Assembly: GCF_006483455.1 (NCBI RefSeq)
Contig: NZ_PPPU01000012.1
Span: forward strand, 1-64,000
Reading direction: 5' to 3'
DNA: 64,000 bases
DNA from: Methylomonas koyamae
GTDB taxonomy: Bacteria; Pseudomonadota; Gammaproteobacteria; Methylococcales; Methylomonadaceae
Below, piece after piece: positions 41,277 to 55,638 of this stretch. Every line of letters begins with the position of its first letter. Position 1 is the stretch's first letter. Both the position numbers and the translations under genes were made by a program. The notes under the pieces were generated by a model. It ran no database searches, was not told the DNA's origin, and saw only the letters and a list, made by a program, of their open reading frames with translations.

Positions 41277-41914
41277 GTTCGTTCGATTCGGTAGTCGTGG
41301 TATTGGCGGCGGAAGCCTTTGCCGTTTTGTTGTTGTTGGTTATCGCGCTGTTCTACTTGTCCCGGAATAGAAAAGGCAAGGAAATGGCCGAAATCGAGCG
41401 CTTCATCGGCGATTTGGAAGGCCATTCCTTCGAAAAAGGCGAACGTTTGCAGCAGTTCATCAGCGAACACTGCAGTTTGAGCGAAGCGGAAATCGAAACG
41501 GTGCTGCAGCAAGTCAACGCCTCGGAACGCGCCTTGTTTCAGGATGTAATCCGCTTGTTCCTGAAGCGGGAATTGGTGCTGTTGCAGGAGATAGAGCAAC
41601 GCATCGAGCAATTGGCCGAGCCTTACCAAAATCTGGTCACCAGCGCCGGTTCGGTTCAGCACGGGCCAGCCGGAGGCGCTGATGCGGAGCAGGTGCAAAA
41701 GCAGGTCGGCTTGGAGCGGGTGAATCAGCAATTGGTGCGGCAGCTCGATACGGCGATGAAAACCATAGACGAGATGTCCGCCGAATATACCCGGGTGTTC
41801 AGCGGCAACCAAACCGCTTTGGAATTGGAAAACAGCAGCAAAAAGATGTTGCAGATATTTCTCGACGCCGAGTTGGCGTTGCGGCATGACCTTGAGGAGT
41901 TGGCGCAGCGATGA
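41273..41914 (+). CDS. Membrane-anchored coiled-coil protein, second gene of the VWA operon
   Basis: This 213-aa protein has one N-terminal membrane helix (about 7-29, VVVVLAAEAFAVLLLLVIALF) followed by RNRKGK, so the rest should be cytosolic. The remainder is almost entirely charged helix with two coiled-coil regions (about 35-125 and 140-213), the latter starting QVQKQVGLERVNQQLVRQLD. No catalytic motif is seen. The ATG overlaps the VWA gene's stop, and its own stop overlaps the next ATG. A structural or signalling partner of the VWA protein is likely (inference). Confidence 0.7.
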   Translation: MSSFDSVVVVLAAEAFAVLLLLVIALFYLSRNRKGKEMAEIERFIGDLEGHSFEKGERLQQFISEHCSLSEAEIETVLQQVNASERALFQDVIRLFLKRELVLLQEIEQRIEQLAEPYQNLVTSAGSVQHGPAGGADAEQVQKQVGLERVNQQLVRQLDTAMKTIDEMSAEYTRVFSGNQTALELENSSKKMLQIFLDAELALRHDLEELAQR

Positions 41915-42393
41915 GTCAGACGTGGACGATCATCATTCTGGCCAATCTATTCGCCGTCAGCGTGTTGGGATTGGCGGTGCTGTGGCTGGTTGGCAGACGG
42001 GAGAAAAAACGCCATCAGGCCGAAATCGAGGCGTTGTTGGCTGAAATCGAAGACCGGCAAGGGCAGCGTGCAGATCGTATCCTGCTGGCGCTGGTCGAAA
42101 AATACGGCTTCGGCGAGGAGGCAGGGCATAGCGTGTCGGAGGTGCTGATGCTGGCGGAAAAGCAGTTCCTATACCAGTGTGTCGAGCAATTGCTGGGTCG
42201 GCAACCGCTATCCGGTTTTTACGAGAGTCTGTGCGGCTTGCTCGACAGTTATCTGAACGCCACGCTGACGGCAAAAACCGTTGCGCCGCCGATTGCAGAA
42301 CCAGCGGACGGCGATGGCGATGCGGAGCCTGCGGAAGCCGGTGCGGAGCAAACCGAAACGCCGCCGCCGGATTGGGGGGATGTGTTCGATTGA
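41911..42393 (+). CDS. Small membrane-anchored protein, third gene of the VWA operon
   Basis: This 160-aa protein has an N-terminal membrane helix (about 6-27, TIIILANLFAVSVLGLAVLW) with GRREKKR on its inner side. A helical cytosolic domain (about 30-120) is followed by a disordered acidic Glu/Ala/Pro tail ending DWGDVFD. Its membrane topology matches the preceding protein. It has no recognised domain. It is convergent with glgX, which ends 3 bases away. Confidence 0.68.
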   Translation: MSQTWTIIILANLFAVSVLGLAVLWLVGRREKKRHQAEIEALLAEIEDRQGQRADRILLALVEKYGFGEEAGHSVSEVLMLAEKQFLYQCVEQLLGRQPLSGFYESLCGLLDSYLNATLTAKTVAPPIAEPADGDGDAEPAEAGAEQTETPPPDWGDVFD

Positions 42394-42396
42394 CGC

Positions 42397-44574
42397 TCAG
42401 GCCGCAGTATCGGCCAGTTTAATACCGGTGAATTTGCTGAAAAGTTGGGCGGAGCGTTTAGACAGGCTATCGCCGTCGCCCGGTTCCGGTTGGCCGTTTT
42501 CGAATACGACCACCGAGTCGCTGTCTACCCAGTAACGGTTGCCTGCGACCGGTTTTTGTTCGGCCGGTTCGAAAATGTCGCGCCCCGGTTTTTGCGCGGT
42601 GTCCACCGCCAGCCGCCAAGTCCGTTCCGGAATGGACGGTAACTCCATCGCCAGCCGTTGATCCGACATGTTCAGTATCACGTGCAAGTCGGACTCATCC
42701 TTAGCCAAAGCCGTTAACGTAAATGCCAGCACACGCGCTTCCCGATCGTCCCAACGCGGAGGCTGGCCAACCTCCAGGCCGTGCCAGACGATATCGGGCA
42801 TACCGCGTTCTTCCAAAATCTCCCCGCTCAGAAACCGCCGGCGCATCAGCGAAACGTGGCGTTTGCGCAAGCGAATCATCAACTGTACGAAATGCAGAAT
42901 GTCGGCATTTTCCTTGGCTTTCTCCCAATTCAGCCAGCTGAGTTCGTTGTCCTGGCAATAGCAGTTGTTGTTGCCCTGTTGCGTGTGCAGGATTTCGTCG
43001 CCGGCCAGCAGCATCGGTACGCCGTGGCTCAACAGCAGAATGGCAAAGGTGTTTTTTACGCGTTTGCGGCGCAGCGCCAGGATAGCCGGATCGCGGGTTG
43101 GGCCTTCGGTGCCGCAATTGCTGCTCAAATTGTTATTGCAGCCGTCGCGGTTGTTTTCGCCGTTGGCGGCATTGTGTTTTTCGTTGTAACTGAACAGGTC
43201 GTTCAGCGTAAAACCGTCGTGGCAGGTGACGAAATTAATCCCGCTGATCGGCAACCGGTGTTGGTGCTGGTAAAGGTCGCTGCTGCCGCAAATGCGGGTG
43301 GCGACCTCGCTGATGATGCCGGTGTCGCCGCGCACGAAACGGCGGATCACGTCGCGGTAACGGCCGTTCCATTCGCCCCAGCGGTAACCGGGGAAGTTGC
43401 CGACCTGGTACAGGCCGGAGGCGTCCCAGGCTTCGGCGATCAGTTTGGTTCTGGCCAATTGTTCCGACAATTCGATGCCCCAGACCAGCGGCGGGTCCTG
43501 CAATACGCTGCCATCTTCGCCGCGGGCCAGTGCGCTGGCGAGGTCGAAGCGGAAGCCGTCCACGTGCATTTCTCTGACCCAATACTCCAGGCAACTGATA
43601 ATGAAGTTGGTGACCAGCGGATGGTTGGCGTTGACGGTGTTGCCGCAGCCGGTGTAATCGTGAAAAATGCGTTTGTCGTGCTTGTCGGTCAGATAAAAGC
43701 TGTTACCGGTGATGCCTTTGAAGTTGATCACCGGTCCATCGGCGCCGGCTTCCGAGGTGTGGTTGAACACAACGTCCATGATCACGCCGATGCCGGCTTT
43801 GTGTAAAGCCTTGACCAAGTCGCGGAACTCGCGGATGTGCGTGCCCTGTTCCGGCGTTACGCAGTAGCCGGGATGCGGGCTGAAAAAACTGTGGGTGCTG
43901 TAACCCCAGTAGTTTTTCAGGCCCAAATCCGAGGTGTGCGGCGGAACGTCCTGCTCGTCAAAGGCCATCACCGGCAGCAACTCGACGTGGGTGATGCCCA
44001 GTTTGGACAAGTAAGGGATTTTTTCGATCAGGCCGGCAAAGCTGCCCGGATGCTTGACTTTGGCGGACGGATGGCGAGTGAAACCGCCGACGTGCAATTC
44101 GTAAATGATGGCTTTCTCGCTGCGGATCGCCAGCGGGGTATCGCCTTCCCAGTCGTAGCGGTCGTCCACCACCACCGCGCGCATCGCATGGGCGCTGTTG
44201 TCGCCGGGCAGGCAGGCGGCGGCGCGTTGCCAGAGTTTGTCGCTAACCGCGCGTGCCCAAGGGTCCAGCAACAACTTGTCCTTGTCGAAGCGCAAGCCGG
44301 ACTCGCGAGTATTGCTCGGCCCGTCGATACGCCAAGCGTACCAAGTGCCGGTCGGCAAGCCTTCGACGAATACGTGCCAGGAAAAAAAAGTGTGGTGTTT
44401 GTCTTTGTGTAGCGCAATGACTTGAAACGGTTCCGGACTATCGTTGCTGGCGAACAGCAACAATTCGACCTCTGTGGCATGCCGGCTGGAGATGGAAAAA
44501 TTCACGCCGCCTTCGCTGACTTTGGCGCCGTGCGGATAGGGACTCCCTGACTTTAAACTGTATGATTCGCGCAT
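42397..44574 (-). CDS. glgX: Glycogen debranching enzyme GlgX / isoamylase-type, GH13
   Basis: The enzyme hydrolyses alpha-1,6 branches of glycogen. I start it at the ATG at 44574 (MRESYSLKSGSPYPHGAKVS, 725 aa), because the upstream extension is not family-like. It has an N-terminal CBM48 module (GVNFSISSRHATEVELLLF). The barrel's catalytic blocks are GFRFDLASALARGEDGS (nucleophile), KLIAEAWDASGLYQVGNFPG (acid) and NFVTCHDGFTLNDLFSYNEK. It is divergent from the DUF4912-GH57 genes across about 180 bases. Confidence 0.94.
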   Translation of the reverse strand: MRESYSLKSGSPYPHGAKVSEGGVNFSISSRHATEVELLLFASNDSPEPFQVIALHKDKHHTFFSWHVFVEGLPTGTWYAWRIDGPSNTRESGLRFDKDKLLLDPWARAVSDKLWQRAAACLPGDNSAHAMRAVVVDDRYDWEGDTPLAIRSEKAIIYELHVGGFTRHPSAKVKHPGSFAGLIEKIPYLSKLGITHVELLPVMAFDEQDVPPHTSDLGLKNYWGYSTHSFFSPHPGYCVTPEQGTHIREFRDLVKALHKAGIGVIMDVVFNHTSEAGADGPVINFKGITGNSFYLTDKHDKRIFHDYTGCGNTVNANHPLVTNFIISCLEYWVREMHVDGFRFDLASALARGEDGSVLQDPPLVWGIELSEQLARTKLIAEAWDASGLYQVGNFPGYRWGEWNGRYRDVIRRFVRGDTGIISEVATRICGSSDLYQHQHRLPISGINFVTCHDGFTLNDLFSYNEKHNAANGENNRDGCNNNLSSNCGTEGPTRDPAILALRRKRVKNTFAILLLSHGVPMLLAGDEILHTQQGNNNCYCQDNELSWLNWEKAKENADILHFVQLMIRLRKRHVSLMRRRFLSGEILEERGMPDIVWHGLEVGQPPRWDDREARVLAFTLTALAKDESDLHVILNMSDQRLAMELPSIPERTWRLAVDTAQKPGRDIFEPAEQKPVAGNRYWVDSDSVVVFENGQPEPGDGDSLSKRSAQLFSKFTGIKLADTAA

Positions 44575-44755
44575 GCCCTTTGCCGAAAAACTTGGATGCC
44601 TTGATTTTACTGCATATCGTAGGCACAGGCCTACGCCTTGCGTAAATAATCGACAACGGGTAGAGTCTATTAGCGTGCCATTGCGGAGGGCTGAATCAGC
44701 CGGCAGCATCGGCCTGCGCTTAACCTTCCGCCAAACCATATCTTTAACATTGCCA

Positions 44756-45442
44756 ATGGCTTCTTCCCGGTCCACATCCCAGTCTCGCTTGCAGCTATCT
44801 GCCGAGGAGATGCGGGATATCAGCCTGGAGATCAGCCGCACTTTTGCCCCGCGGCGGTTCAGGGCCGGCGGTCGGGCCGCCACCTCCGGGTTTTCGCCGC
44901 AAGAGCTGTTTGGCATCAGCCAGCAAATCAGCCGCGAATTCGCGCCGCGGGCCGATATGCGCGCACCGGGGGCGCCCAGCTTGGTGCTGTTGCCGGTGGA
45001 TCCGCGCCGGCTGCACGCCTATTGGCAATTGCCGGAACCCGCGCGGCAAGCCCGGACCGATGCTCAGCCGCAACTGCCGGCAACGAGCGAAACCGGATTG
45101 ACCCTACGGATTTACCGGCAACCGGAAGCGAAGGCTGATTTGCCGGAGCAAACCGAAAACCGGCCCGAGTGGTTCGACCTGCCGGTGTCCGGCCAGAGCA
45201 GTCAGCAGCAAATCGCGTTACCCGAGCCATTGTCGAATTCCGCCGGCTATTACCAGGCGGCTATCGGTCATCTGGACCAGTATAAGGAGTTTACCGCCTT
45301 GGCCTATTCCAATCCGGCGGCTGTCGCCGAAACCGCGAGTGCGGCGACCTGGCTGGCGCCGGTCATCGCCCAGTTCGTGTTGCCGGTCTCCGCCGGTTCG
45401 CCTGCCGGATCGGCGGCATTGGCGGGTTGCGACCATGAATAA
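44756..45442 (+). CDS. DUF4912 protein with a duplicated N-terminal motif
   Basis: This 228-aa protein starts at the ATG at 44756 (MASSRSTSQSRLQLSAEEMR). The N-terminal part holds two copies of one motif: LSAEEMRDISLEISRTFAPR and, about 40 residues on, FSPQELFGISQQISREFAPR. Then comes a DUF4912 domain, recognisable by SLVLLPVDPRRLHAYWQLPE and TGLTLRIYRQ. DUF4912 proteins often neighbour GH57 branching enzymes, as here, where the stop overlaps the GH57 start by 8 bases. The domain may be a carbohydrate-binding-like sandwich, and the N-terminal repeats possible docking helices. No enzyme motif is visible. Confidence 0.72.
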   Translation: MASSRSTSQSRLQLSAEEMRDISLEISRTFAPRRFRAGGRAATSGFSPQELFGISQQISREFAPRADMRAPGAPSLVLLPVDPRRLHAYWQLPEPARQARTDAQPQLPATSETGLTLRIYRQPEAKADLPEQTENRPEWFDLPVSGQSSQQQIALPEPLSNSAGYYQAAIGHLDQYKEFTALAYSNPAAVAETASAATWLAPVIAQFVLPVSAGSPAGSAALAGCDHE

Positions 45443-47021
45443 CGGCTATCTGGCAATTGTTCTGCACGCGCATTTGCCGTACGTGCACCACCCCGAGCAC
45501 GACAGTTTTTTTGAAGAAAACTGGCTGTTCGAGGCGATCAGCGAGTGTTATCTGCCGCTATTGGCCATGTTCGAGCGGTTGCGTTACGACCGGGTAGCCT
45601 ACCGGCTGACCCTGTCGTTATCGCCGACGCTGATGGCGATGTTGCGCGATCCGTTGTTGCAAAACCGGTTTTTGCGTTATCTGCGGGGACGGGTGGAGCT
45701 GGCCGAGCGCGAGGTGGAGCGTACCCGGCGCTTGCCGCAGTTTCATGCGCTGGCGCAACATTACCTGCAACTGTTTCACGACAATCTGTACGATTACCAG
45801 CAGCGCTACCACTGCGATCTGCTGGCTGCATTTCAGCGCCACCAAAGCAGCGGCCGGCTGGAGTTGATCACTACCGCGGCGACCCACGGCTATCTGCCGT
45901 TGTTGGACGTCAATCCCGTCTCGGTCCGCAATCAAATCGGCGTCGGCATCGACAGCTTTCAGGCTCAATTCGGTTTTGCCCCGCGCGGATTTTGGCTGCC
46001 GGAGTGCGGCTATTACCCCGGTCTGGAGCAGACCCTGAAGGCCGCCGGTATCGAGTATTTTTTTCTGGAAAGCCATGCGCTGCTCAATGCCGATCGTCGG
46101 CCGCCGTTCGGCGTGTATGCGCCGATCGATTGCGGCGGAGTGGCCGGATTCGGCCGCGACCCGGCCGCGTCGCACCAGGTTTGGAGCGCCGAGTCCGGCT
46201 ATCCTGGCGACGGCGACTACCGCGAATATTACCGGGACATCGGTTTCGATCTGCCATTGGAATATATCGCGCCCTACATCCTGGACGGCGAGACCCGGAT
46301 CAATACCGGCATCAAATACTACCGGATCACCGGCGGCAAACAGCCCAAACAGGCTTATCAGCCGGAATTGGCCAAGTTGAAACTACGCCGCCACGCCGAA
46401 GATTTCATCGCCAGCCGCCGGCGGCAGATCGACGCCTTGGCCGCGGAAATGCAACAAGCGCCTATCGTTGTCGCGCCTTACGATGCCGAATTGTTCGGCC
46501 ATTGGTGGTTCGAGGGGCCGTTGTGGCTGGAACAGGTATTGCGTTTGGCAGCCGGCGCGGACAGCGGTTTGCAAACCGTCGGTTGCAGCGATTATCTGCA
46601 ATTGGGCTTGCCGTGCCAGCCGGCGGTACCTGCCGCATCGAGTTGGGGCGAGCACGGCTATTCGGAATTCTGGTTGAACGAAAGCAACGATTGGATTTAT
46701 CCGTTGTTGCATAAGGCGGCCGCCGAAATGGAAAAGTTGGCGGGCGACTTGCGCGGCTTGCAGGTCAGCGACTTGCAACGCCGGGCGCTGAACCAGGCCG
46801 CGCGCTCCTTGTTGCTGGCGCAGGCTTCGGATTGGCCGTTCATCATGAAAGCCGGTACCACCATCGATTACGCGCGGAAACGCATCACCGACCATCTGGC
46901 GCGCTTCAATTATCTGCACGACTCGATTCGTAAAAACCGGATCGACGAACGCTATTTGACAGCGCTGGAGATCATGGACGATATTTTTCCGGAGATCGAT
47001 TTTCGCCAGTATGCCGCCTAG
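45435..47021 (+). CDS. GH57 1,4-alpha-glucan branching enzyme (DUF1957 type)
   Basis: This 528-aa GH57 enzyme starts at the ATG at 45435 (MNNGYLAIVLHAHLPYVHHP). The HAHLPYVHHPEHDSFFEENW block is typical of the DUF1957 branching-enzyme subgroup. The nucleophile Glu lies in GFWLPECGYYPGLEQ, and the acid Asp in VVAPYDAELFGHWWFEGPLW. The C-terminal helical domain (AARSLLLAQASDWPFIMKAG) is complete. It would duplicate GlgB function with a different branching pattern. It belongs to the DUF4912-GH57 pair and may be transcribed with the CBM-EEP and PLD genes downstream (65-base gap). Confidence 0.92.
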   Translation: MNNGYLAIVLHAHLPYVHHPEHDSFFEENWLFEAISECYLPLLAMFERLRYDRVAYRLTLSLSPTLMAMLRDPLLQNRFLRYLRGRVELAEREVERTRRLPQFHALAQHYLQLFHDNLYDYQQRYHCDLLAAFQRHQSSGRLELITTAATHGYLPLLDVNPVSVRNQIGVGIDSFQAQFGFAPRGFWLPECGYYPGLEQTLKAAGIEYFFLESHALLNADRRPPFGVYAPIDCGGVAGFGRDPAASHQVWSAESGYPGDGDYREYYRDIGFDLPLEYIAPYILDGETRINTGIKYYRITGGKQPKQAYQPELAKLKLRRHAEDFIASRRRQIDALAAEMQQAPIVVAPYDAELFGHWWFEGPLWLEQVLRLAAGADSGLQTVGCSDYLQLGLPCQPAVPAASSWGEHGYSEFWLNESNDWIYPLLHKAAAEMEKLAGDLRGLQVSDLQRRALNQAARSLLLAQASDWPFIMKAGTTIDYARKRITDHLARFNYLHDSIRKNRIDERYLTALEIMDDIFPEIDFRQYAA

Positions 47022-47086
47022 GCGGCCGGCCACCAAGCCAAACCGGTGCGTGCTATTGCCGTGCCGTTCAGCTCACGGGAGGGATC

Positions 47087-48586
47087 ATGGATAACATCCA
47101 GTTACTGTATGTCGGCAACATCGTTAGCGGTAAAGCCGCTGCCAGCAGCCAGATCTTGCAGTTTTTCATGCGGGTGGCCAATCTCGGTTACGGTAAGACC
47201 GTCGAAGTGCATTGGGCCGGCGAAGACGGCGTGCGGCGCACGGTGTTGGCTGACTATTGCATCACTGCCGGCGACGGTAGCGAATACTGGCGCGCCGAGC
47301 TGAGGTTTCAGTGTCAGGCCAAGGCCGATTTGCCCGGCGATATCCGTTTCTCCTTACGCTTACAGCATGAGGGCCGCGAATATTGGGACAACAACGACGG
47401 CTGTCAGGGTTATTTTTGCGCAGCCGGCAGCGGTGGACGCACGACCGGTCTGGTGCCGGTACTGAATTTGAGCCCGTTGCAGGGACTTAGCGCGTCGCAA
47501 CGCAGCATTCCGCTTAAATTGGCCGTCGATGCCGGTTTGGCGGCAGAAAAGGTGACGGTCCATTGGACGCTGGACGATTGGCACCACGTCCACAAAACCA
47601 GCTGCCGGCTGCAATCCGGCAGGCGCTCCGCCACCCGTAGCGGTTATGCCGGGCTGCATCCGGTACAGCATTGGAGCACCAATCTCAAACTCGACGGCGC
47701 GTTCCGGGTGCAGTACAGCATCTGCTGCGAAGGTAAGGAGCAGACCTTCTGGGATAACAATGCCGGACAAAACTACCGGCTGAGCCGGGCGCCGCTGAAA
47801 GTGATGATTCTGAATCTGCACTGTTACCAGGAGGACGATCAGGATCGGAAGTTCTGGCAAATCGCGAAAGCGGTGGACGAACTGGGCGCCGACCTGGTGT
47901 GTTTGCAGGAAGTGGCGGAACATTGGAACGACGGTCGCGGCGACTGGGCCTCCAATTCCGCCAATATCATCAACCGGCGTTTGAAGCAGCCGTTTCATTT
48001 GTATAGCGATTGGTCCCATCTGGGGTTCGACAAATACCGGGAGGGCGTGGCGATCCTGAGCCGCTATCCGTTCGAGCGCCAGGAGGCGCGCTACGTTTCC
48101 GACAGCAGCGATGCCTATAGCATCCATTCCCGCAAAGTGGTGGCGGCCAGCATCGACGTACCTTACATCGGCACCATCGACGTGTTCTCCGCCCATTTGA
48201 GCTGGTGGGAAGACGGTTTTCGCGACCAATTTCAACGCTTGTCGGAATGGGCCGACGGCCGGCGCGGCGCCGAGGTGGCGGCCACTTTGTTATGCGGCGA
48301 TTTCAATATCGCGGCGGGTTCGTTAGGCTATGGCTTGGTCGTCGACGGCCACCGCTACGAAGACCAATATCTGGCGGCCAACGCACCGGCCTTGTTTCAA
48401 CAGATCTTCCGGGTGGACGATGCCCACTGGCGCGACCGGCTGGCGGACGACTACCGGATCGATTATGTGTTTATGAACAAAGATAGCGGATTGCGGGCGA
48501 CTTCGGCGCGGGTAGTCTTCACCGAGCAGGATTACGGCCGGGTTTCCGACCATTGCGGCTATCTGCTGGAGTTCGAGCCGCTGTAA
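47087..48586 (+). CDS. Two CBM21-like starch-binding modules fused to an endonuclease/exonuclease/phosphatase domain
   Basis: This 499-aa cytosolic protein (no signal peptide) has an unusual architecture. Residues about 1-112 and 120-235 each look like CBM21/CBM53 starch- or glycogen-binding modules, with the diagnostic YWDNNDG (Trp100) and FWDNNAGQNYRLS (Trp222). Residues about 238-499 are an EEP-fold hydrolase with all core blocks: MILNLHCYQ, DLVCLQEV (Glu275), FSAHLSWW, LLCGDFNIA (Asp405, Asn407), RIDYVFMNK and VSDHCGYL (Asp488, His489). The EEP fold cuts phosphodiesters or phosphomonoesters (DNA, inositol phosphates, sphingomyelin). The modules suggest that the substrate or location is glycogen. 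I know no described equivalent. Confidence 0.78.
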   Translation: MDNIQLLYVGNIVSGKAAASSQILQFFMRVANLGYGKTVEVHWAGEDGVRRTVLADYCITAGDGSEYWRAELRFQCQAKADLPGDIRFSLRLQHEGREYWDNNDGCQGYFCAAGSGGRTTGLVPVLNLSPLQGLSASQRSIPLKLAVDAGLAAEKVTVHWTLDDWHHVHKTSCRLQSGRRSATRSGYAGLHPVQHWSTNLKLDGAFRVQYSICCEGKEQTFWDNNAGQNYRLSRAPLKVMILNLHCYQEDDQDRKFWQIAKAVDELGADLVCLQEVAEHWNDGRGDWASNSANIINRRLKQPFHLYSDWSHLGFDKYREGVAILSRYPFERQEARYVSDSSDAYSIHSRKVVAASIDVPYIGTIDVFSAHLSWWEDGFRDQFQRLSEWADGRRGAEVAATLLCGDFNIAAGSLGYGLVVDGHRYEDQYLAANAPALFQQIFRVDDAHWRDRLADDYRIDYVFMNKDSGLRATSARVVFTEQDYGRVSDHCGYLLEFEPL

Positions 48587-48638
48587 CCGGTTCCAGGCTC
48601 GAGTATGGATTTTAACCTGTGCGATTAGGCGAGCGAAT

Positions 48639-50231
48639 ATGCAAGTAGCAGAACATTACGCCAAGCCGGTATTCGGCAAATTGGGGGGCTGTTTTCAACG
48701 CAGCAACGATTTTAGGGAAATCTTCGACGTTCGTTGGGGCAAGATCGATTTCGAGTTGAACCATGGCGTCACCGCCAACCTGAAGGTGGTGCTGAAGGTA
48801 TTCCGCGATGCGATCTGCGAAACTTACGTGGTCGACACCGATGCCTACGACGTCGAGTGGGATCGGCACAAGCGTTCGACCCGCGACTTTTACGTGATGC
48901 CGTATTCGGCCCAGTTCGGCCGGATCCATTGCATCAAGTTTGCGTTCATCGTCCACCTTGGCGAACATTCTATAGCGTCTCGGCACGAGTACATCTTCAT
49001 GGACGCGCCGCAATTGCAGGACAATCAGCCGGCGCAACGGCATATCGGCGAACAATGGGCGACTGCCAACCACTACCGCACGCATGAGGTCGATCCCGGC
49101 AAATTGCAGGCCGACGTGGACTGGTACAACCGCCATTTCGACTCGCTGCACCTGACGCCAAAATTCACCAAGGGTCAGCAGCACCATCCCTACCACCCGA
49201 AGCGCTTCATCCACGACCATATCGACAAAACCATCGCCGCCAAACGGGCACAACCCGATCGCCTGTGCACGATCAAGGTCAGCGTGGACTGCATCGACGA
49301 CAACGACTTCATCAATCACCTGATCCATGCCAGCCACCAGGGCGTACTGGTGCAATGCATCGTCGACTGGCGCAAGATGACCTTGACCAACAGCCAGAAC
49401 TACGCCCGGTTGAAACGTTCCGGCATCGAGTTGGTTGGCGTGTTCTGCACGCCGAAGCACCACTTGATCGAAGTCGAGCCGGACATGCATACCAAATTCG
49501 TCATCTTTAACGACGAGGACGCGATCATCGGTTCGTTCAACATTACCTTCGACCGCTGGTGGGCCAACTGGGAATCGGGCATGAGCTTCCATTCCCAGGG
49601 CGTGTGCCGCTTGCTGGACAACATCTTCCAAAGCCAGCGCGGCGGTGTGATCCAGAAATACGGTATCGATCCGCTCAGCCCGTTCAACCTGCTCTACACC
49701 TTCGGCCGGCAAACCATGGCTAACGGCAAGGTGTATAGGCCGCATCATGCGATTTTGGCCGAAATTCACCGCGCCCGCCGCTCGTTGAAGCTGTGCCTGT
49801 TTTTGATCGGCGATCTGCTCGGCGACCACAACGATAGCGTCATTACCGCCTTGATCCAGGCCCGCGACCGCGGGGTGGACGTGCAGTTGCTGTTCAACGG
49901 CCATTTGGCGCGGCAGGGCAAGATCGGGGTCGAACGGCCGATGGCGGAGGAACTGGCGCGGCCCTTGCTGCCGGCGATTCAACGCCTGAAAGACGCCGGC
50001 ATCCGCGTCGGCCTGGTCTACGGCCAAGACGATTTACCGGTGCCGTACTCGCCGATCCATTGCAAGTATTGCGTGATCGACGAATACATCGTCATCGAAG
50101 GCAGCTTCAACTGGTACAACACCTCGGTGTTCTCCCACGATCTGGTCGTCGTCGCCGCCAACCGCGACGTGGCGCGGCCTTACTTGTACGAGTTCGAGCA
50201 GATTCAGCGCTTGTTCCGGGTGTTCTACTGA
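48639..50231 (+). CDS. Phospholipase-D-superfamily protein beside the CBM-EEP gene
   Basis: This 530-aa cytosolic protein (no signal peptide) has an N-terminal domain (about 1-145, predicted mostly beta) that I do not recognise, with possible module-like features such as WGKIDFELNHGVTANLKVVL. Two PLD halves follow. The second motif is canonical: HCKYCVID (His474, Lys476, Asp481) with GSFNW. The first is HTKFVIFND (His284, Lys286), where the canonical Asp position is Asn291, followed by GSFNIT. It should have phosphodiesterase or nuclease or phosphatidyl-type chemistry. It begins 52 bases after the CBM-EEP gene, so the two probably act together. Cardiolipin-synthase or nuclease roles cannot be excluded. 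Confidence 0.75.
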   Translation: MQVAEHYAKPVFGKLGGCFQRSNDFREIFDVRWGKIDFELNHGVTANLKVVLKVFRDAICETYVVDTDAYDVEWDRHKRSTRDFYVMPYSAQFGRIHCIKFAFIVHLGEHSIASRHEYIFMDAPQLQDNQPAQRHIGEQWATANHYRTHEVDPGKLQADVDWYNRHFDSLHLTPKFTKGQQHHPYHPKRFIHDHIDKTIAAKRAQPDRLCTIKVSVDCIDDNDFINHLIHASHQGVLVQCIVDWRKMTLTNSQNYARLKRSGIELVGVFCTPKHHLIEVEPDMHTKFVIFNDEDAIIGSFNITFDRWWANWESGMSFHSQGVCRLLDNIFQSQRGGVIQKYGIDPLSPFNLLYTFGRQTMANGKVYRPHHAILAEIHRARRSLKLCLFLIGDLLGDHNDSVITALIQARDRGVDVQLLFNGHLARQGKIGVERPMAEELARPLLPAIQRLKDAGIRVGLVYGQDDLPVPYSPIHCKYCVIDEYIVIEGSFNWYNTSVFSHDLVVVAANRDVARPYLYEFEQIQRLFRVFY

Positions 50232-50247
50232 TTCGAGTCGATACGGC

Positions 50248-51615
50248 ATGGCAAAAAAACAAAAGTCGGCGTACGTCTGTACCGAATGCGGCGCGGATTA
50301 TCCGGGGTGGTCGGGGCAATGCAACCAATGCGGCGCCTGGAATACGATCAAAGAGGTCAAACTGGGCGGCGGTAAAACGGAGCGGGAGCGTTCCGGTTAC
50401 GCCGGCAGCCGCAGTGCGGTGCAGTTGCTGTCGGAGGTCAATCTGGCTCAGGCCGAGCGCATTTCTACCGGCTTGGCCGAGTTCGACCGGGTATTGGGCG
50501 GCGGTATCGTCAAGGGCAGCGTGGTGTTGATCGGCGGTGCACCGGGCGCCGGCAAGAGTACGATTTTGTTGCAGGCCATCGCCCATATCGCCCGGCAATT
50601 GCCGGTTCTTTATGTTTCCGGCGAGGAATCCTTACAGCAGATTGCCGAGCGCGCCCACCGCCTGCAATTGAATACGGCCGGCATCAAGATGCTGGCCGAA
50701 ACCTCGGTGCAGCAGATTTGCCAGCTGCTCGATGAAGAGCAGCCGCAAGTCGTCATCATCGATTCGATCCAAGTCATGTACACGGCGGATTCCGATTCGG
50801 CGCCGGGTTCGGTGTCGCAGGTGCGGGAGTCGGCCAGTTTTTTGACTCAGTACGCCAAGCGCACCGGCGTGTCGTTTTTTATGGTCGGCCACGTCACCAA
50901 GGACCAGTCGCTGGCCGGGCCGATGACCTTGAGCCACATCGTCGACGCCCAGGTGGTGCTGTCTTCGACCGACGATTCGCGGTTTCGGGTGTTGCGCGCC
51001 GACAAGAATCGCTTCGGCAGCGTCGGCGAGCTGGGTTTTTTCGCGATGGAAAGCAGCGGCTTGAAGGAAGTGAAAAACCCGTCGGCGATGTTTTTGTCGC
51101 GCGCGGAAAAGCCGTCGCCGGGTAGCGTGGTGACGGTGTTGTGGGAAGGCACCCGGCCCTTGCTGGTGGAAATCCAGGCTCTGGTCACCGAAAGCCAGTA
51201 CGGCAATCCGCGCCGGTTGGCGGTGGGTCTGGATCAAAACCGGCTGGCGATGCTGCTGGCGGTGTTATCGCGCCACGGCGGTATCTTCACCGGCAACGAC
51301 GAGATTTACGCCAACGTGGTCGGCGGTATCAAAGTCAGCGAAACCAGTACCGATCTGGCCATCCTGGTCGGTGTCGTATCCAGTCTTAGAGACCGGATCA
51401 TTCCTTACGATACGGTGTTTTTCGGCGAAGTGGGCTTGAACGGCGAGATTCGCCCGGTCGCCAACGGCCATGCCCGTCTCAATGAAGCTGCCAAACACGG
51501 TTTCAAAAAAGCCATCATTCCGAAAAGCAATAAGCCGAAGGATGGCGTCAAACATCTGGAAATCCATGCGGTGAGCAACATTCAGGACGCGCTGGCGGTA
51601 TTGGCTGATTTGTGA
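50248..51615 (+). CDS. radA: DNA repair protein RadA
   Basis: This RecA-like branch-migration helicase acts in recombination. It is 455 aa. The N-terminal zinc finger is YVCTECGADYPGWSGQCNQC. Walker A is IGGAPGAGKSTILLQ and Walker B is QVVIIDSIQVMY. The RadA-specific KNRFGSVGELGFFAM block is present, and the C-terminal Lon-like domain ends with EIHAVSNIQDALAVL. It starts 16 bases after the PLD gene on the same strand, probably by shared transcription rather than function. Confidence 0.97.
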   Translation: MAKKQKSAYVCTECGADYPGWSGQCNQCGAWNTIKEVKLGGGKTERERSGYAGSRSAVQLLSEVNLAQAERISTGLAEFDRVLGGGIVKGSVVLIGGAPGAGKSTILLQAIAHIARQLPVLYVSGEESLQQIAERAHRLQLNTAGIKMLAETSVQQICQLLDEEQPQVVIIDSIQVMYTADSDSAPGSVSQVRESASFLTQYAKRTGVSFFMVGHVTKDQSLAGPMTLSHIVDAQVVLSSTDDSRFRVLRADKNRFGSVGELGFFAMESSGLKEVKNPSAMFLSRAEKPSPGSVVTVLWEGTRPLLVEIQALVTESQYGNPRRLAVGLDQNRLAMLLAVLSRHGGIFTGNDEIYANVVGGIKVSETSTDLAILVGVVSSLRDRIIPYDTVFFGEVGLNGEIRPVANGHARLNEAAKHGFKKAIIPKSNKPKDGVKHLEIHAVSNIQDALAVLADL

Positions 51616-51764
51616 ACGGCGGCCGGTTGTCGGTAGCGGTGATCTTTAAACCGTCTGGGGGGCAGAGATACGGTTAACGCTAGCTACTTCCCGGAATCTC
51701 GGGGTGTCGCGGAACGTTAAGTTGTCAGGTAGCCGTGTCCGAGGCGTTACGGATAGGCGATGCG

Positions 51765-51837
51765 GCCGCACAGAAGCGGCAGAGGAGAGATGCGGAGCGT
51801 CCTTGCTCCGTTGGCTCGACGCAATCCGGCGTCGAGC
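51765..51837. terminator. Three tandem GC-rich hairpins after the PEP-CTERM gene
   Basis: Three consecutive inverted repeats are visible: GCTCGACGC/GCGTCGAGC (51814-51822 with 51829-51837), CGGAGC/GCTCCG (51793-51798 with 51805-51810) and GCCGC/GCGGC (51765-51769 with 51776-51780). They lie between the convergent ends of radA and the exported-protein gene at 51850. None has a long T run, so they may be a composite terminator or an RNA-stabilising 3' structure. The remaining 150 bases up to radA show nothing else. Confidence 0.5.
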
Positions 51838-51849
51838 GTCCAGCTTAGT

Positions 51850-53166
51850 TTAAGCCAGTTGTTGTTTGCGACGGCTGGCGCCAATCAGGCCGGCCATGGC
51901 GCTGCCGAACAACCAGACTGCGCCCGGTACCGGCACCGCAGCGACGGTGGTTTCGATGGTGAAGCCGTAAGGACTACGCAATGTAGCCACCAAGTTTTCG
52001 TATTTTGTAACGTTAGTCCGTGCTACGTTGTAAGCATCTTTTAAAGCAACTGCGGCCGGATCAGCTGCTAAAGCGGCGTCCAGTGCGGCTTTAGCGGCTG
52101 CTTTTTCAGCGGCTGTTGTCGTATGGCTTGCGATAGCCGCGTCGTAAGCTGCTTGTGCTGCTACGATGGCTGGAGCAGTCGATATGTAGTTTGTATAAGC
52201 GGTGTTTGCCGCAGCGATTGCGGCATCGTCCGCGGTATGCGCTGCCTGTAGGCCTTGGTAGTTGGCTTGTTGTTCAAGGGCATGTGCTGCGTTGGTGCCG
52301 CCTACCCAAAGACTGTAGTCACCGGGGCCTAAGATGCCGCTCCATGTGACCGTATGGCTGCCAGCGGCTGACGCCGCAGAGTCGATATATTTCAAGGTTG
52401 AGACATTACCTTCGCCGAGCACTTGTGACGTGCCAATCGACTTGCCATTACCGTATGTTGCGGTCGCGCTAATATCTCTTCCGCCAGTCCAGTCGGCGTT
52501 TGAACGATATGCACCCCATGTGCCGGAACCGGTATAAGTATTGCCGGTTGTTGTTTCATAGGTAGCATCCGTTGCCGCGGTATAGGGCTGAACTGATGCG
52601 TAGGGCCCCCATGCAACATATCCTGGAAGACGCTGGGCCAGTGCGGTGTTGCCAATCCCGCCTTCGTGAGATGACTGCGGAGCCAAGCCTTTAAAAATGG
52701 AAAATGCCGGGTTCCAGTCTTGACCGCTCAAGGTGGTCACTGTGCTGCCGCCTGTAGCTTGAGTTTGTACGGTGCTAGCGGCTGTACCCAGCGTTGTCAC
52801 AGTGAATGTAACGCGAGAGGTATTGGCTAGAGAAAACGCCAAGCCTTTGTTGTCGTGGCTATTGGCCCACAGGCTATTGTCTTGGCCTTGGATCCAGCCG
52901 TAGTCGGAAGAAACCGCGCGAGTTTGGGTATAGGTGCCGTAGCTGGTGCCGGTAGCGGTATTGGTACCGAAAGTGCCGGCTGCATTGGCGCCGGTACCGT
53001 TGTTTGCTACGCCGGCGGCCAAGTTGCTATTAGCCAGATTCATTGGGTTGGTGCCGGCATCGTTATACAGGAAAGGGCCGGAACTCCAGTGAGCGAACGC
53101 TTGGCCGGAAATACCCGCCATGCCGCCGGTTAACAGTGCTACTACCAGTTTTTTTTGCAATACCAT
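51850..53166 (-). CDS. Exported VPxPx/PEP-CTERM protein with alanine-rich insertion and mature N-terminal His
   Basis: This 438-aa protein has a signal peptide ending AFA before HWSSGPF, so the mature protein begins with His. Residues about 26-310 form a beta-rich Thr/Gly/Asn domain. A stretch of about 100 residues, very rich in Ala and predicted helical, follows (about 310-405, for example TTAAEKAAAKAALDAALAAD). The C-terminal anchor is VPVPGAVWLFGSAMAGLIG plus RRKQQ, a PEP-CTERM-type exosortase signal. The beta domain is paralogous to the protein at 53990: FSIFKGLAPQSSHEGG against FSLYRGLVPDEAHDGA, and GPGDYSLWVGG against TPGDYTLAIGG. Function unknown; surface or extracellular location likely. 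Exosortase is not encoded here. Confidence 0.8.
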   Translation of the reverse strand: MVLQKKLVVALLTGGMAGISGQAFAHWSSGPFLYNDAGTNPMNLANSNLAAGVANNGTGANAAGTFGTNTATGTSYGTYTQTRAVSSDYGWIQGQDNSLWANSHDNKGLAFSLANTSRVTFTVTTLGTAASTVQTQATGGSTVTTLSGQDWNPAFSIFKGLAPQSSHEGGIGNTALAQRLPGYVAWGPYASVQPYTAATDATYETTTGNTYTGSGTWGAYRSNADWTGGRDISATATYGNGKSIGTSQVLGEGNVSTLKYIDSAASAAGSHTVTWSGILGPGDYSLWVGGTNAAHALEQQANYQGLQAAHTADDAAIAAANTAYTNYISTAPAIVAAQAAYDAAIASHTTTAAEKAAAKAALDAALAADPAAVALKDAYNVARTNVTKYENLVATLRSPYGFTIETTVAAVPVPGAVWLFGSAMAGLIGASRRKQQLA

Positions 53167-53989
53167 TTTCTGTCCTCAGAATTATCGTTTTTGTAAAGAC
53201 GGTGCTAACGAAGCGGCCTCCCCCATAGCCCGGCGATCACCCTTACTGCGGCAATTAGCCAAGCTCGATCCGATTCAATAACTTCCTGCTGTTGTGTCCG
53301 TCGCTCAGCTTCGGACGTGTTGTCTTCGAGTCGGGACTATCTGTTCGGAAATCCCGAGTGTTGCCGACATCGACGAGCAAAAGCCCATCAACAATATTCG
53401 TGCCAGCTCGATTTGCAATGTTGACAACGCCTTTATAAATCAAATGGTTGGCGGTATAGATGGCTGGTCGGGTCGGCTAGACGAGTTTGAGGCGGCTGCT
53501 GCGTACCGGCCGAAAAGTGTGTGATTTGGCGCAATTTTTTATAACTTATTGAAATCAATTTGATATTTTTTGCGCAGATTGCGGATTGCTTCCCGGTTTT
53601 GCGGATAAAGCTGAGTTTTTTCGGCGGACAGCCAGGAATTCCGGGGCGAGACCTGGAAATTAAATAGTGTTATTTCACAAAAACAATGATTTATATAACA
53701 TAGTTTAATTTTTAAATCGTGAAATTCCTTCCTAATCCTAAGGTTGGACTAGAGGTGTTTGGCGGCTGATTAAACGCGGCGCGGTTTAACGTTCGACGGG
53801 ATGGTGGCGCCGCAACGCTTGGTTTTAGCGGCTTCGGCGGATTGCGTGGTGTCGGCTGAGTATGGCCGTTCGATATGTCGGCGGCGTAGTTCCAGATTGT
53901 GGCGCGGGTTTTGCTGTAATCCATTGGATTCTGCAGGCCGGTGGTCGAGGCTTGTCTGTAACCGTTCTACTAAACGTTTGAGGATTGCT
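53167..53989. other. 824-base intergenic stretch between two divergent exported-protein genes
   Basis: No credible gene is seen. Short open frames (for example 53294-53524, plus strand) have no ribosome site or family character. The part from about 53530 to 53740 is strikingly AT-rich for this genome (runs such as TTTTTTATAACTTATTG and ATTTATATAACATAG) and probably holds the promoters for both flanking paralogues. A GAGG ribosome site precedes the gene at 53990. Confidence 0.5.
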
Positions 53990-54796
53990 ATGAAGCACCA
54001 GTTATTCAAGGTCGTACCCGTTATTGCTACCGTCATGCTGCCGTTCCAATCGGCATCGGCTCATGTGAATTATTACGATTTGTTCAATAACGTGACTACC
54101 CAAGTCACCAGCACTGCGACATCAACGACCTACAGCGGCGGCGACGTCCTGAAAGGCAATTTTGGTTGGGGTGACGCTACCGATGTGGACTGGGGTGACA
54201 GTCATATGGGTTCTTGGATTCGCTTCAGCGTTAGCCAGCCGGCAGGTGTTTGGGTAAGTATTAACGTCGCCAGCGACGGCATCAACCAATACGTCAATAA
54301 CGATCCGAACAACCCGTCGCGCTTGGGCGACTTAAAGCCGGGGTTTTCTTTATACCGCGGCTTAGTGCCCGACGAAGCTCACGATGGTGCTACTGCCGGT
54401 GTGCAGCCCGGCGATCCGCAATTCGGTAAGGAAGGGGCTTGGCGAGCGCTGGCGGATACAACCATGGGCAATGACAACGGCGATGTCGCTACCATCGAAT
54501 ACTTGGCTCATGCCGGTTCCGTCAATGGTTCCGCAGCCAGCGTCTCGTTGCTCAATTTCTTTTTGACGCCTGGCGATTACACGCTGGCAATCGGCGGCAG
54601 CTGTTACGACCAAAACCAATGCGTTGGCGCGTTCAATATCTTCGATCCGAACGCCGACGAAACTGCCCGCGGCTATAAAGTCAGCGTTACCGTGTCTTCG
54701 GTTGCGCCGGTACCGCTGCCGGCAGCCGCTTGGCTGATGATCAGTGGCCTGATCGGTGTATTGGGTTTAAACAAACGCCGCTTGCCCGCGGCTTAA
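53990..54796 (+). CDS. Exported VPLPA-CTERM protein, paralogue of the gene at 51850
   Basis: This 268-aa protein starts at the ATG at 53990 (MKHQLFKVVPVIATVMLPFQ), with the signal peptide ending ASA before HVNYYDL, so the mature N-terminus is His. A compact beta domain carries two further histidines at positions also occupied in the paralogue: (N/D)SH (GDSHMGSW) and AH(D/E)G. The C-terminus is APVPLPAAAWLMISGLIGVL plus NKRR, a VPLPA-type PEP-CTERM anchor. A disulfide is possible between the cysteines in GSCYDQNQCVG, a segment that is replaced by the Ala-rich insert in the 51850 protein. Function unknown; the shared histidines suggest metal binding. Confidence 0.78.
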   Translation: MKHQLFKVVPVIATVMLPFQSASAHVNYYDLFNNVTTQVTSTATSTTYSGGDVLKGNFGWGDATDVDWGDSHMGSWIRFSVSQPAGVWVSINVASDGINQYVNNDPNNPSRLGDLKPGFSLYRGLVPDEAHDGATAGVQPGDPQFGKEGAWRALADTTMGNDNGDVATIEYLAHAGSVNGSAASVSLLNFFLTPGDYTLAIGGSCYDQNQCVGAFNIFDPNADETARGYKVSVTVSSVAPVPLPAAAWLMISGLIGVLGLNKRRLPAA

Positions 54797-54891
54797 CCTA
54801 AGAATTTTTGGCCGTGGTGGCAGAGCGCCGCGGATCAAAGAGCTGGCGCCGGTTCGGCGTTTCCATCAATGCAATTAAGGAGATCAACATC

Positions 54892-55638
54892 ATGGGTTTT
54901 ACCAATAGCTTGAAGATATCGGCGCTCGCGCTGGGTTTGGCGGCCGGAACGGCCAATGCGCACGGATTGCCGACTCCGGTGTCCGGCGACCCTTACATCG
55001 CCACCGAAACCGACCTGAGTTGGAGCGGCGGTGTCGGTACAGCCACCGACGGTGTGCTGATTAACAACACCATTTTGGCTTACCACTTCGACGTCACTAC
55101 GGCGGGATCTTTGGATGTGTATACCGACGACGGCGATGATGCGGCCGGGATTGCTTCTCTATACATCTACAAAAAAGATGACGTAGGCGCGGATTGGACC
55201 CTGACCCATTTCAATTACTTCGGCGACGGCCCCGTTACCGGTCCGACCGATCCGAACAATATCTTCGGGGTGCCTCGTACCGGTTATCTCGATCAGAACA
55301 ATGTTGGTCTATCTGATGCTGGTCTCCGCGAGCATTTCGATTTGGGATCCTATATCGCATTTGTGGTCGGCAGTTCCGGCGATATCTTCGGACATCTTGG
55401 TGCCCCGCTGGGGGCTAAACTGTCCGAGGGCTTTACATGGTCTTGGACTGGCGACAAGGACGATTTGTATACCAATGTACAAGCTTTGAGCGATTTGACG
55501 ATCAAAGCGTCGCCGGGTTCGTTGGCCGTGGCCGGTCCTGCGGTCGAGCCGGTGCCTGTGCCTGGCGCCATTTGGCTGATGGGTAGCGTGTTGGCCGGCT
55601 TCGGCGCATTCGGCCGCAAAAAAACCATCGTCGCTTAA
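54892..55638 (+). CDS. Exported VPxPx-CTERM protein
   Basis: This 248-aa protein starts at the ATG at 54892, which has an AAGGAGA ribosome site. The signal peptide ends ANA before HGLPTPVSG, again leaving an N-terminal His. The body is acidic and beta-rich (FDVTTAGSLDVYTDDGDDAA), like choice-of-anchor or DVUA-type secreted domains, and is not clearly homologous to the neighbouring pair. The C-terminus EPVPVPGAIWLMGSVLAGFG plus GRKK is the exosortase-type anchor. It lies in the same direction as the gene at 53990, 95 bases downstream. Role unknown. Confidence 0.78.
   Translation: MGFTNSLKISALALGLAAGTANAHGLPTPVSGDPYIATETDLSWSGGVGTATDGVLINNTILAYHFDVTTAGSLDVYTDDGDDAAGIASLYIYKKDDVGADWTLTHFNYFGDGPVTGPTDPNNIFGVPRTGYLDQNNVGLSDAGLREHFDLGSYIAFVVGSSGDIFGHLGAPLGAKLSEGFTWSWTGDKDDLYTNVQALSDLTIKASPGSLAVAGPAVEPVPVPGAIWLMGSVLAGFGAFGRKKTIVA

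Follow-up and report, generated by a model that had tools for sequence, protein, structure and literature searches.

Two adjacent genes for a CBM21-EEP protein and a PLD-fold protein

We analysed a stretch of 64,000 nt from Methylomonas koyamae (positions 1 to 64,000 of contig NZ_PPPU01000012.1, assembly GCF_006483455.1), in the following called the window, with regard to two adjacent genes on its forward strand. The first gene (47087..48586) codes for a protein of 499 amino acids (aa) in which two carbohydrate-binding modules of the CBM21 family precede a domain of the endonuclease/exonuclease/phosphatase (EEP) superfamily. The second gene (48639..50231) codes for a protein of 530 aa with two halves of the phospholipase D (PLD) fold. 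The two genes are paired in a near-constant manner and are repeatedly placed among glycogen genes, and the EEP domain is a relative of the sugar phosphatase MapP. Together these features suggest a phosphatase that would be held on glycogen.

The architecture of the first protein had been read from the sequence by an original prediction and was borne out by domain profiles. In Pfam, CBM_21 (PF03370) matches in two stretches (E 5.4e-17, 62.5 bits versus a gathering score of 28.9) and Exo_endo_phos (PF03372) scores above its curated cut-off (E 1.1e-16). The first CBM21 module spans aa 1–118 (47087..47440) and contains W43, W68 and W100, the second spans aa 119–235 (47441..47791) with W160, W165, W196 and W222, and the EEP catalytic domain occupies aa 236–499 (47792..48583). 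Trp100 and Trp222, which had been assigned to WDNN motifs, are indeed kept in 49 and 48, respectively, of 51 alignment rows (the window protein together with its relatives from genome contigs); for the motif Trp residues as a whole the figure is 48–51 of 51. The EEP superfamily is characterized by the catalytic set N, E, H, D, N, D and DH, and this set is complete, as predicted: N243, E275, H370, D405, N407, D459, D488 and H489 are invariant in 51/51 rows.

Profile searches against solved structures matched the second module to the protein phosphatase 1 (PP1) subunits R3B (2eef, E 2.9e-7) and R3C (7qf7, E 6e-7), and the first module, with the whole profile, to the starch-binding domain of a glucoamylase (2djm, E 2.9e-6), which we take to be the one from Rhizopus. 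The motif WDNN-x-x-x-NY or a close variant of it is common to the CBM21 modules and the matched PP1 and glucoamylase domains. CBM21-type domains of PP1 subunits and glucoamylases bind alpha-glucan. Position 50 of the first module, which aligns with Trp47 of 2djm, is a Trp in 49/51 rows and an Arg in the window protein; therefore, the first module of this particular protein may bind alpha-glucan less well. An AlphaFold2 model built from the 51-row alignment (mean pLDDT 88.6, pTM 0.84) has two beta-rich modules and the EEP domain. Both proteins had been thought to be cytosolic. In line with this, 19-residue windows with a Kyte-Doolittle value above 1.4 are absent from both, although this is a crude hydropathy check and the location rests on it. 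The EEP domain is acidic in all 51 rows (pI 4.5–5.8), a feature less expected of a nuclease, though compatible with one.

In the second protein, PLDc_2 (PF13091) matches in two stretches above the curated cut-off (E 2.7e-34). Each half carries the HxK and GSxN elements of the PLD superfamily: H284-x-K286-x4-N291 followed by G298-S299-x-N301 in the first (49488..49541) and H474-x-K476-x4-D481 followed by G488-S489-x-N491 in the second (50058..50111). All of these residues are invariant in 53/53 rows, so that the predicted combination of one canonical half and one with Asn in place of Asp holds throughout, and Asn291 is a fixed feature and not a sign of decay. The PLD protein is better conserved than the EEP protein, with a mean column identity of 83% versus 62%. 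Its AlphaFold2 model, derived from the 53 rows (pLDDT 74.7, pTM 0.73, with several loops below 50 and five models ranging from 74.7 to 55.0), consists of an all-beta N-terminal domain and the two PLD halves. For the N-terminal domain (aa 1–145, 48639..49073), delimited by predicted strands, no family was found. The idea of a third CBM21 module was dropped, as the profile comparison with either module gave a probability of about 1%.

Enzymes with the PLD fold work on phosphodiesters or catalyse phosphoryl transfer, and the matches of the second protein spread over several such activities. Part of the first half (aa 188–242) resembles PP_kinase_C (PF13090, E 1.3e-6 over 55 residues). The DrmC model NF038319 gives a partial match of 42.1 bits versus a cut-off of 133, the halves match the NucT model below its cut-off, and the bac_cardiolipin model TIGR04265 reaches 22.5 bits versus 290. 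The DrmC of DISARM and cardiolipin synthase were consequently rejected as identities of this protein, both curated cut-offs being missed. Foldseek matches include PLD3/PLD4, phospholipases D, phosphatidylserine synthase and the polyphosphate kinase PPK1. Both half-sites look conserved, and since the second protein partially resembles DrmC, NucT and polyphosphate kinase alike, several reactions are candidates.

Conservation of the pair and of its genomic location

Among 201 genomes of the family to which the window belongs, 126 have both genes, 3 have only the CBM21-EEP gene, 6 only the PLD gene and 66 neither. The resulting totals of 129 for the EEP and 132 for the PLD gene leave out 5 of 134 matched genomes (EEP domain only or weak matches) and 4 of 136 (short matches only), respectively; partial rows are still counted, for instance G133 and G145 for the EEP gene and G068, G123, G134 and G197 for the PLD gene. 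In 112 of the 126 genomes the two genes are adjacent on one strand with 17–498 bp between them. The remaining pairs comprise two with gaps of 636 and 719 bp, four that lie apart on one contig and eight on different contigs. The original prediction had made its proposal dependent on such co-occurrence, and a failure of it was not seen. An EEP-PLD fusion suggested by a long open frame in G027 was excluded by the coordinates: the two parts are separated by 80 bases, which is not a multiple of three. In a subgroup of the window's genus (L097, L098, L100 and L105) the PLD gene is either separated from the EEP gene or shifted downstream by a few hundred bases, and a small conserved open reading frame (ORF; 86–100 aa) is located on the opposite strand just upstream of it.

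Glycogen genes are often found in the surroundings. A GH57 branching enzyme is found in 120 of the 135 genomes with either gene versus 10 of the 66 with neither, counts that are uncorrected for relatedness of the genomes, and it stands directly before the EEP gene in 66 of 117 genomes holding both. Gene maps were drawn for the window and 40 fetched stretches and, separately, for the best 80 of 166 genome-contig relatives. Two arrangements recur, GlgX / DUF4912-GH57-EEP-PLD and MalQ / GH57 amylase / GlgC / GlgB-GlgA-EEP-PLD, and some loci combine both, one on either side. Among the best 80 of 166 loci, EEP is preceded by GH57 in 37, by GlgA in 16 and by another gene in 13 cases; the preceding gene is off the contig in 5, and in 9 no EEP gene was called. 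A glycogen gene was called in 60 of these 80 loci and in 39 of the 45 with at least 17 kb of sequence. These names were given by similarity to clusters named by eye, and ten genes from L085, L082, L078 and L137 were tested: the families MalQ, GlgC, GlgB, GlgA, GlgX, DUF4912 and GH57 were upheld at Pfam or NCBIfam cut-offs, while the supposed GlgC of L137 proved to be RmlA, for which reason L137 is left out of both counts. Thus, the glycogen link of the original prediction is strongly supported by two conserved arrangements and by the kinship of the CBM21 modules with PP1 glycogen-targeting subunits. Glycogen synthase as such was given up as a discriminator, since GlgA is present in 35 of 40 pair-negative versus 38 of 40 pair-positive genomes. 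Five genomes (G018, G023, G039, G099 and G133) have two strong GlgA matches; in the first four of them one GlgA adjoins the EEP-PLD pair, which hints at a second glycogen module.

The window itself has the first arrangement, and the domain sets in Pfam agree with the neighbours named by the original prediction. Directly upstream of the EEP gene, with a gap of 65 bp, lies the GH57 branching enzyme gene (45429..47021, forward strand; Glyco_hydro_57 and BE_C), an order that is repeated in other loci; its ORF as listed begins at 45339, and the ATG at 45429 was taken as the start. It is preceded by the DUF4912 gene (44573..45442, forward strand, E 7.2e-9) and by a divergent ORF for a GlgX-type debranching enzyme (42397..44916, reverse strand; CBM_48, Alpha-amylase and ISOA1-3_C), whose true start is probably internal because the ORF overlaps that of DUF4912. 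A scan of 44400–51900 for promoters and terminators yielded no excess over shuffled sequences; the operon structure therefore rests on gene spacing only. Further upstream, at 39480–42393, a von Willebrand-type protein (by eye) and two small proteins are encoded between Pgk and glgX, and these are kept in the nearest Methylomonas loci. Downstream, at 51850–55638, three neighbouring proteins possess a C-terminal VPxPGAxWL-like stretch, a hydrophobic segment and a basic tail, a pattern that presumably corresponds to PEP-CTERM sorting signals.

Occurrence outside the family

One of the best 80 loci, L198, is labelled Candidatus Accumulibacter. It led to the finding of the PLD gene in 17 of 28 Accumulibacter genomes at 71–74% identity, and the assumption that the pair is confined to one family was abandoned. 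In 16 of the 17 the EEP gene precedes the PLD gene; in the 17th the contig begins at the PLD gene. According to Pfam, the neighbours in L198 are a carbamoyltransferase before and PGK after the pair. Accumulibacter is known for cycling glycogen and polyphosphate. In a sample of 249 genomes from its family there were eight full-length matches, all of them in Accumulibacter, and two short ones. Quick trees of both proteins place Accumulibacter on one side of a branch, and the distances of the EEP and PLD proteins correlate at 0.89 over 55 loci, which suggests that the two genes travelled as a unit. Because host range was judged from the best 80 of 166 genome-contig relatives, further host groups are possible.

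Apart from the genome of the window itself, a full-length PLD homologue was not met in samples of the class (321 genomes) or the phylum (299 genomes). Carriage of the pair by plasmids or phages was considered and discarded: the plasmid search yielded no PLD protein and the EEP domain alone at 25–30% identity, and pattern-based scans of viral contigs, with an annotated phage collection outside the search, found no relatives of either protein.

Relationship of the EEP domain to MapP

The plasmid records, 62 of which match the EEP domain (the 60 listed ones at the identity just given), contain among those 60 a single one annotated as a maltose 6'-phosphate phosphatase, from Enterococcus faecalis. 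By its record annotation this is MapP, to which the EEP domain is 27% identical. A profile made from 51 EEP domains separates two kinds of proteins. Six MapP-type plasmid proteins score 101–118 bits, L063 114, a paralogue without CBM in the window's genome 200 and L062 212 bits, as opposed to generic EEP proteins with 39.6 bits for YbhP, 32.6 for L064 and no reported score for XthA and YafD. Among the residues in common with the MapP rows are H311, Y317, E319, W373 and G491 (SDHxG versus SDHxP), which are absent from YbhP, XthA and YafD. In a tree the four generic EEP rows split off (97/91) from a MapP group that includes L063 (100/99) and a CBM21-EEP group (93/99), with long branches, a bootstrap that had not settled and an outgroup consisting of these four long-branched rows. 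By these sequence comparisons, the EEP domain falls on the side of MapP, away from the generic EEP proteins.

Genomic location sets the two apart. A phosphotransferase system (PTS) IIBC gene precedes the EEP relative in all six of the surroundings with annotation (from Lactococcus, Enterococcus in two cases, Cetobacterium, Leclercia and Priestia; a seventh from Niallia is without annotation there), and each of the six stretches contains a gene for pgmB, GH65 or an alpha-glucosidase. In the window the preceding gene is GH57 and not a PTS gene. We file the CBM21-EEP protein as a relative of MapP and, given its context, not as MapP itself. The best solved relative of the domain in a profile search of the PDB is 3teb (E 8.3e-31), and Foldseek lists, at rank 33 for the EEP protein, the mannosyl-6-phosphatase Bt3783 (4c1r), an EEP glycan phosphatase.

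Two further members of this group were noted. The CBM-less, MapP-like gene of the window's genome (G000:C2:72144-72974; L002, L240), 39% identical, adjoins genes which by eye resemble ethanolamine ammonia-lyase subunits. L062 (1294-2280), the best class-sample match outside the family with 44% over the domain, is from another gammaproteobacterial family and by eye has a lipoprotein-like N-terminus.

Possible function of the pair

In our view the CBM21-CBM21-EEP protein is, with somewhat better than even likelihood, a glycogen-held phosphatase of alpha-1,4-glucan phosphate monoesters, most likely 6-phosphates, with the PLD protein acting on the same polymer or granule. The tandem CBM21 would hold the enzyme on glycogen, and the metal-dependent EEP mechanism, as in its kin MapP, would hydrolyse 6-phosphate esters of the alpha-1,4-glucan, which is the simplest reaction. 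Its use could be the removal of phosphate that enters glycogen through side reactions, for instance with a hexose 6-phosphate as acceptor or chain end, or through errors of GlgA; if not cleared, such phosphate would hinder branching and debranching enzymes. As a guess, the PLD partner might convert phosphodiester-linked substituents or cross-links into monoesters, which the EEP enzyme would then remove. Architecture, conserved active sites, kinship with MapP, pairing and placement among glycogen genes are observations, whereas the substrate, the presence of phosphate on methanotroph glycogen and the entire PLD step are inferred. Methylomonas converts methane via the ribulose monophosphate (RuMP) cycle to fructose 6-phosphate and further to glucose 1-phosphate (PMC11934524). 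Since this cycle yields fructose 6-phosphate, hexose 6-phosphates should be abundant in Methylomonas, and accidental 6-phosphoglucosyl ends would be plausible. Phosphate on glucan lowers the affinity of branching enzyme (PMC13011383), and this would account for the position of the pair next to branching enzyme genes.

Several observations weigh against this interpretation. H311, W373 and G491 are no hallmark of MapP alone, since the generic row L064 carries them too. The identity to MapP is low, at 27%, and the CBM21-EEP rows fall outside the MapP group, in a tree whose outgroup of four long-branched rows is thin. No glycogen gene was called near the pair in the 17 Accumulibacter genomes, nor in 6 of the 45 loci with at least 17 kb of sequence, and from the GlgA counts given above it follows that many relatives can make glycogen without the pair. 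In G133 (G133:C36:76078-76926) only the EEP domain was matched before the PLD gene (query 205–498, an open frame of 286 aa). Finally, a glycan precedent for two PLD halves was not found in this analysis. With respect to G133, the CBM21 part is either missing or in another frame.

Four other explanations have to be considered. The substrates of the EEP enzyme could be soluble, such as maltodextrins that carry phosphate or further sugar phosphates arising in glycogen turnover, as for MapP proper, with the CBM21 modules merely parking it near the source. In favour of this, the annotated relative is a maltose 6'-phosphate phosphatase whose gene has a PTS gene as neighbour; yet a tandem CBM21 would then be superfluous, and a branching enzyme instead of a PTS gene precedes the gene in the window, so that we regard this explanation as unlikely, though as the least unlikely of the four.

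The original prediction had left room for phosphate removal as well as for a nuclease or lipase, possibly in defence or stress. Kinship with MapP favours phosphate removal for the EEP protein, whereas the other roles have become less likely. A pair of nucleases that would cut nucleic acid at or close to glycogen granules, for defence or in response to stress, could be argued from the occurrence of nucleases in both folds, from the DrmC and NucT matches below cut-off and from the listing of Tdp2 and PLD3/PLD4 by Foldseek. However, the EEP domain is acidic and far less distant from MapP than from XthA; PADLOC and PHROG gave nothing for the EEP protein at E 0.01 and only partial matches for the PLD protein; the viral-contig scans were negative, and the pair repeatedly adjoins storage genes. 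We consider such a role improbable. To about the same low degree we believe in a write-and-erase switch, in which the PLD protein would be the phosphorylating arm and transfer phosphate to glycogen in the manner of the PLD-fold polyphosphate kinase. PP_kinase_C and PPK1 are among its matches and the host Accumulibacter is known for polyphosphate, but the former match is partial and at the domain level, and no nucleotide- or polyphosphate-binding part was shown. Least probable of all is a lipid or membrane role, with the two proteins as a YbhP-ClsB-like pair that would synthesize or trim a phosphatidyl-glucan or tether glycogen to the membrane: ybhP, clsB and ybhN are consecutive in E. coli, and Foldseek also matches phospholipases D and phosphatidylserine synthase, but YbhP reaches only 39.6 bits with the EEP profile and neither protein has a strongly hydrophobic segment.

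The pair might even constitute the first bacterial glycogen phosphatase system, composed of a MapP-related, CBM21-anchored phosphatase and a dedicated PLD-fold partner for phosphodiesters or phosphotransfer; we put this forward tentatively, as a possibility somewhat short of an even chance. Among the titles and abstract openings listed by literature searches, with subscription journals mostly outside the coverage, none describes an EEP-PLD pair or a CBM21-EEP protein, and no work was found on the phosphorylation of bacterial glycogen or its removal, a topic which seems hardly studied. A 2009 survey judged a glucan phosphatase in bacteria unlikely. Should the system exist, bacterial glycogen would carry regulated or damaging phosphate esters, and glucan phosphatases would have arisen at least twice from unrelated folds. 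With the conserved combination of CBM21 and a MapP-related domain among glycogen genes, the issue of glycogen phosphate becomes testable with two genes, also in Methylomonas, where glgA has been deleted before (PMC11934524).

Comparison with known systems

MapP of E. faecalis shares with the window protein the EEP catalytic domain, several non-generic residues and the context of an alpha-1,4-glucose substrate. In contrast to it, MapP is a protein of 274 aa without CBM21, at the low identity given above, its gene follows a PTS gene and the stretch read contains no PLD gene. The 266-residue chain of 3teb, an EEP protein of Leptotrichia buccalis, is matched by the window protein over the EEP domain only, and its title names no function. 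Bt3783 combines, by its entry title, the EEP fold with the function of a glycan phosphatase, but the match is a structural one and the substrate is mannan instead of alpha-glucan. As in YbhP-ClsB of E. coli, an EEP gene adjoins a PLD gene; that EEP protein is much more distant, however, and that PLD protein is a cardiolipin synthase. DrmC of DISARM has the PLD fold and partially matches the PLD halves, the window's PLD protein staying below the DrmC cut-off.

With regard to glycogen binding, the PP1 subunits R3A, R3B and R3C have a CBM21 with WDNN-x-x-x-NY or close variants. These glycogen-targeting subunits recruit a protein phosphatase and lack a catalytic domain of their own, unlike the window protein, which has one. 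Laforin and SEX4 come closest in layout, as they join a carbohydrate-binding module and a phosphatase-type domain in one chain, and an action on glycogen is what we propose here. Their phosphatase domain is a dual-specificity Cys phosphatase, whereas the window protein is bacterial and has an EEP domain, a tandem CBM21 and a PLD partner; only CBM_21 and Exo_endo_phos pass the Pfam cut-offs in it, and a dual-specificity phosphatase domain (Cx5R) does not. Hence, the window protein may work like a glucan phosphatase without being descended from laforin.

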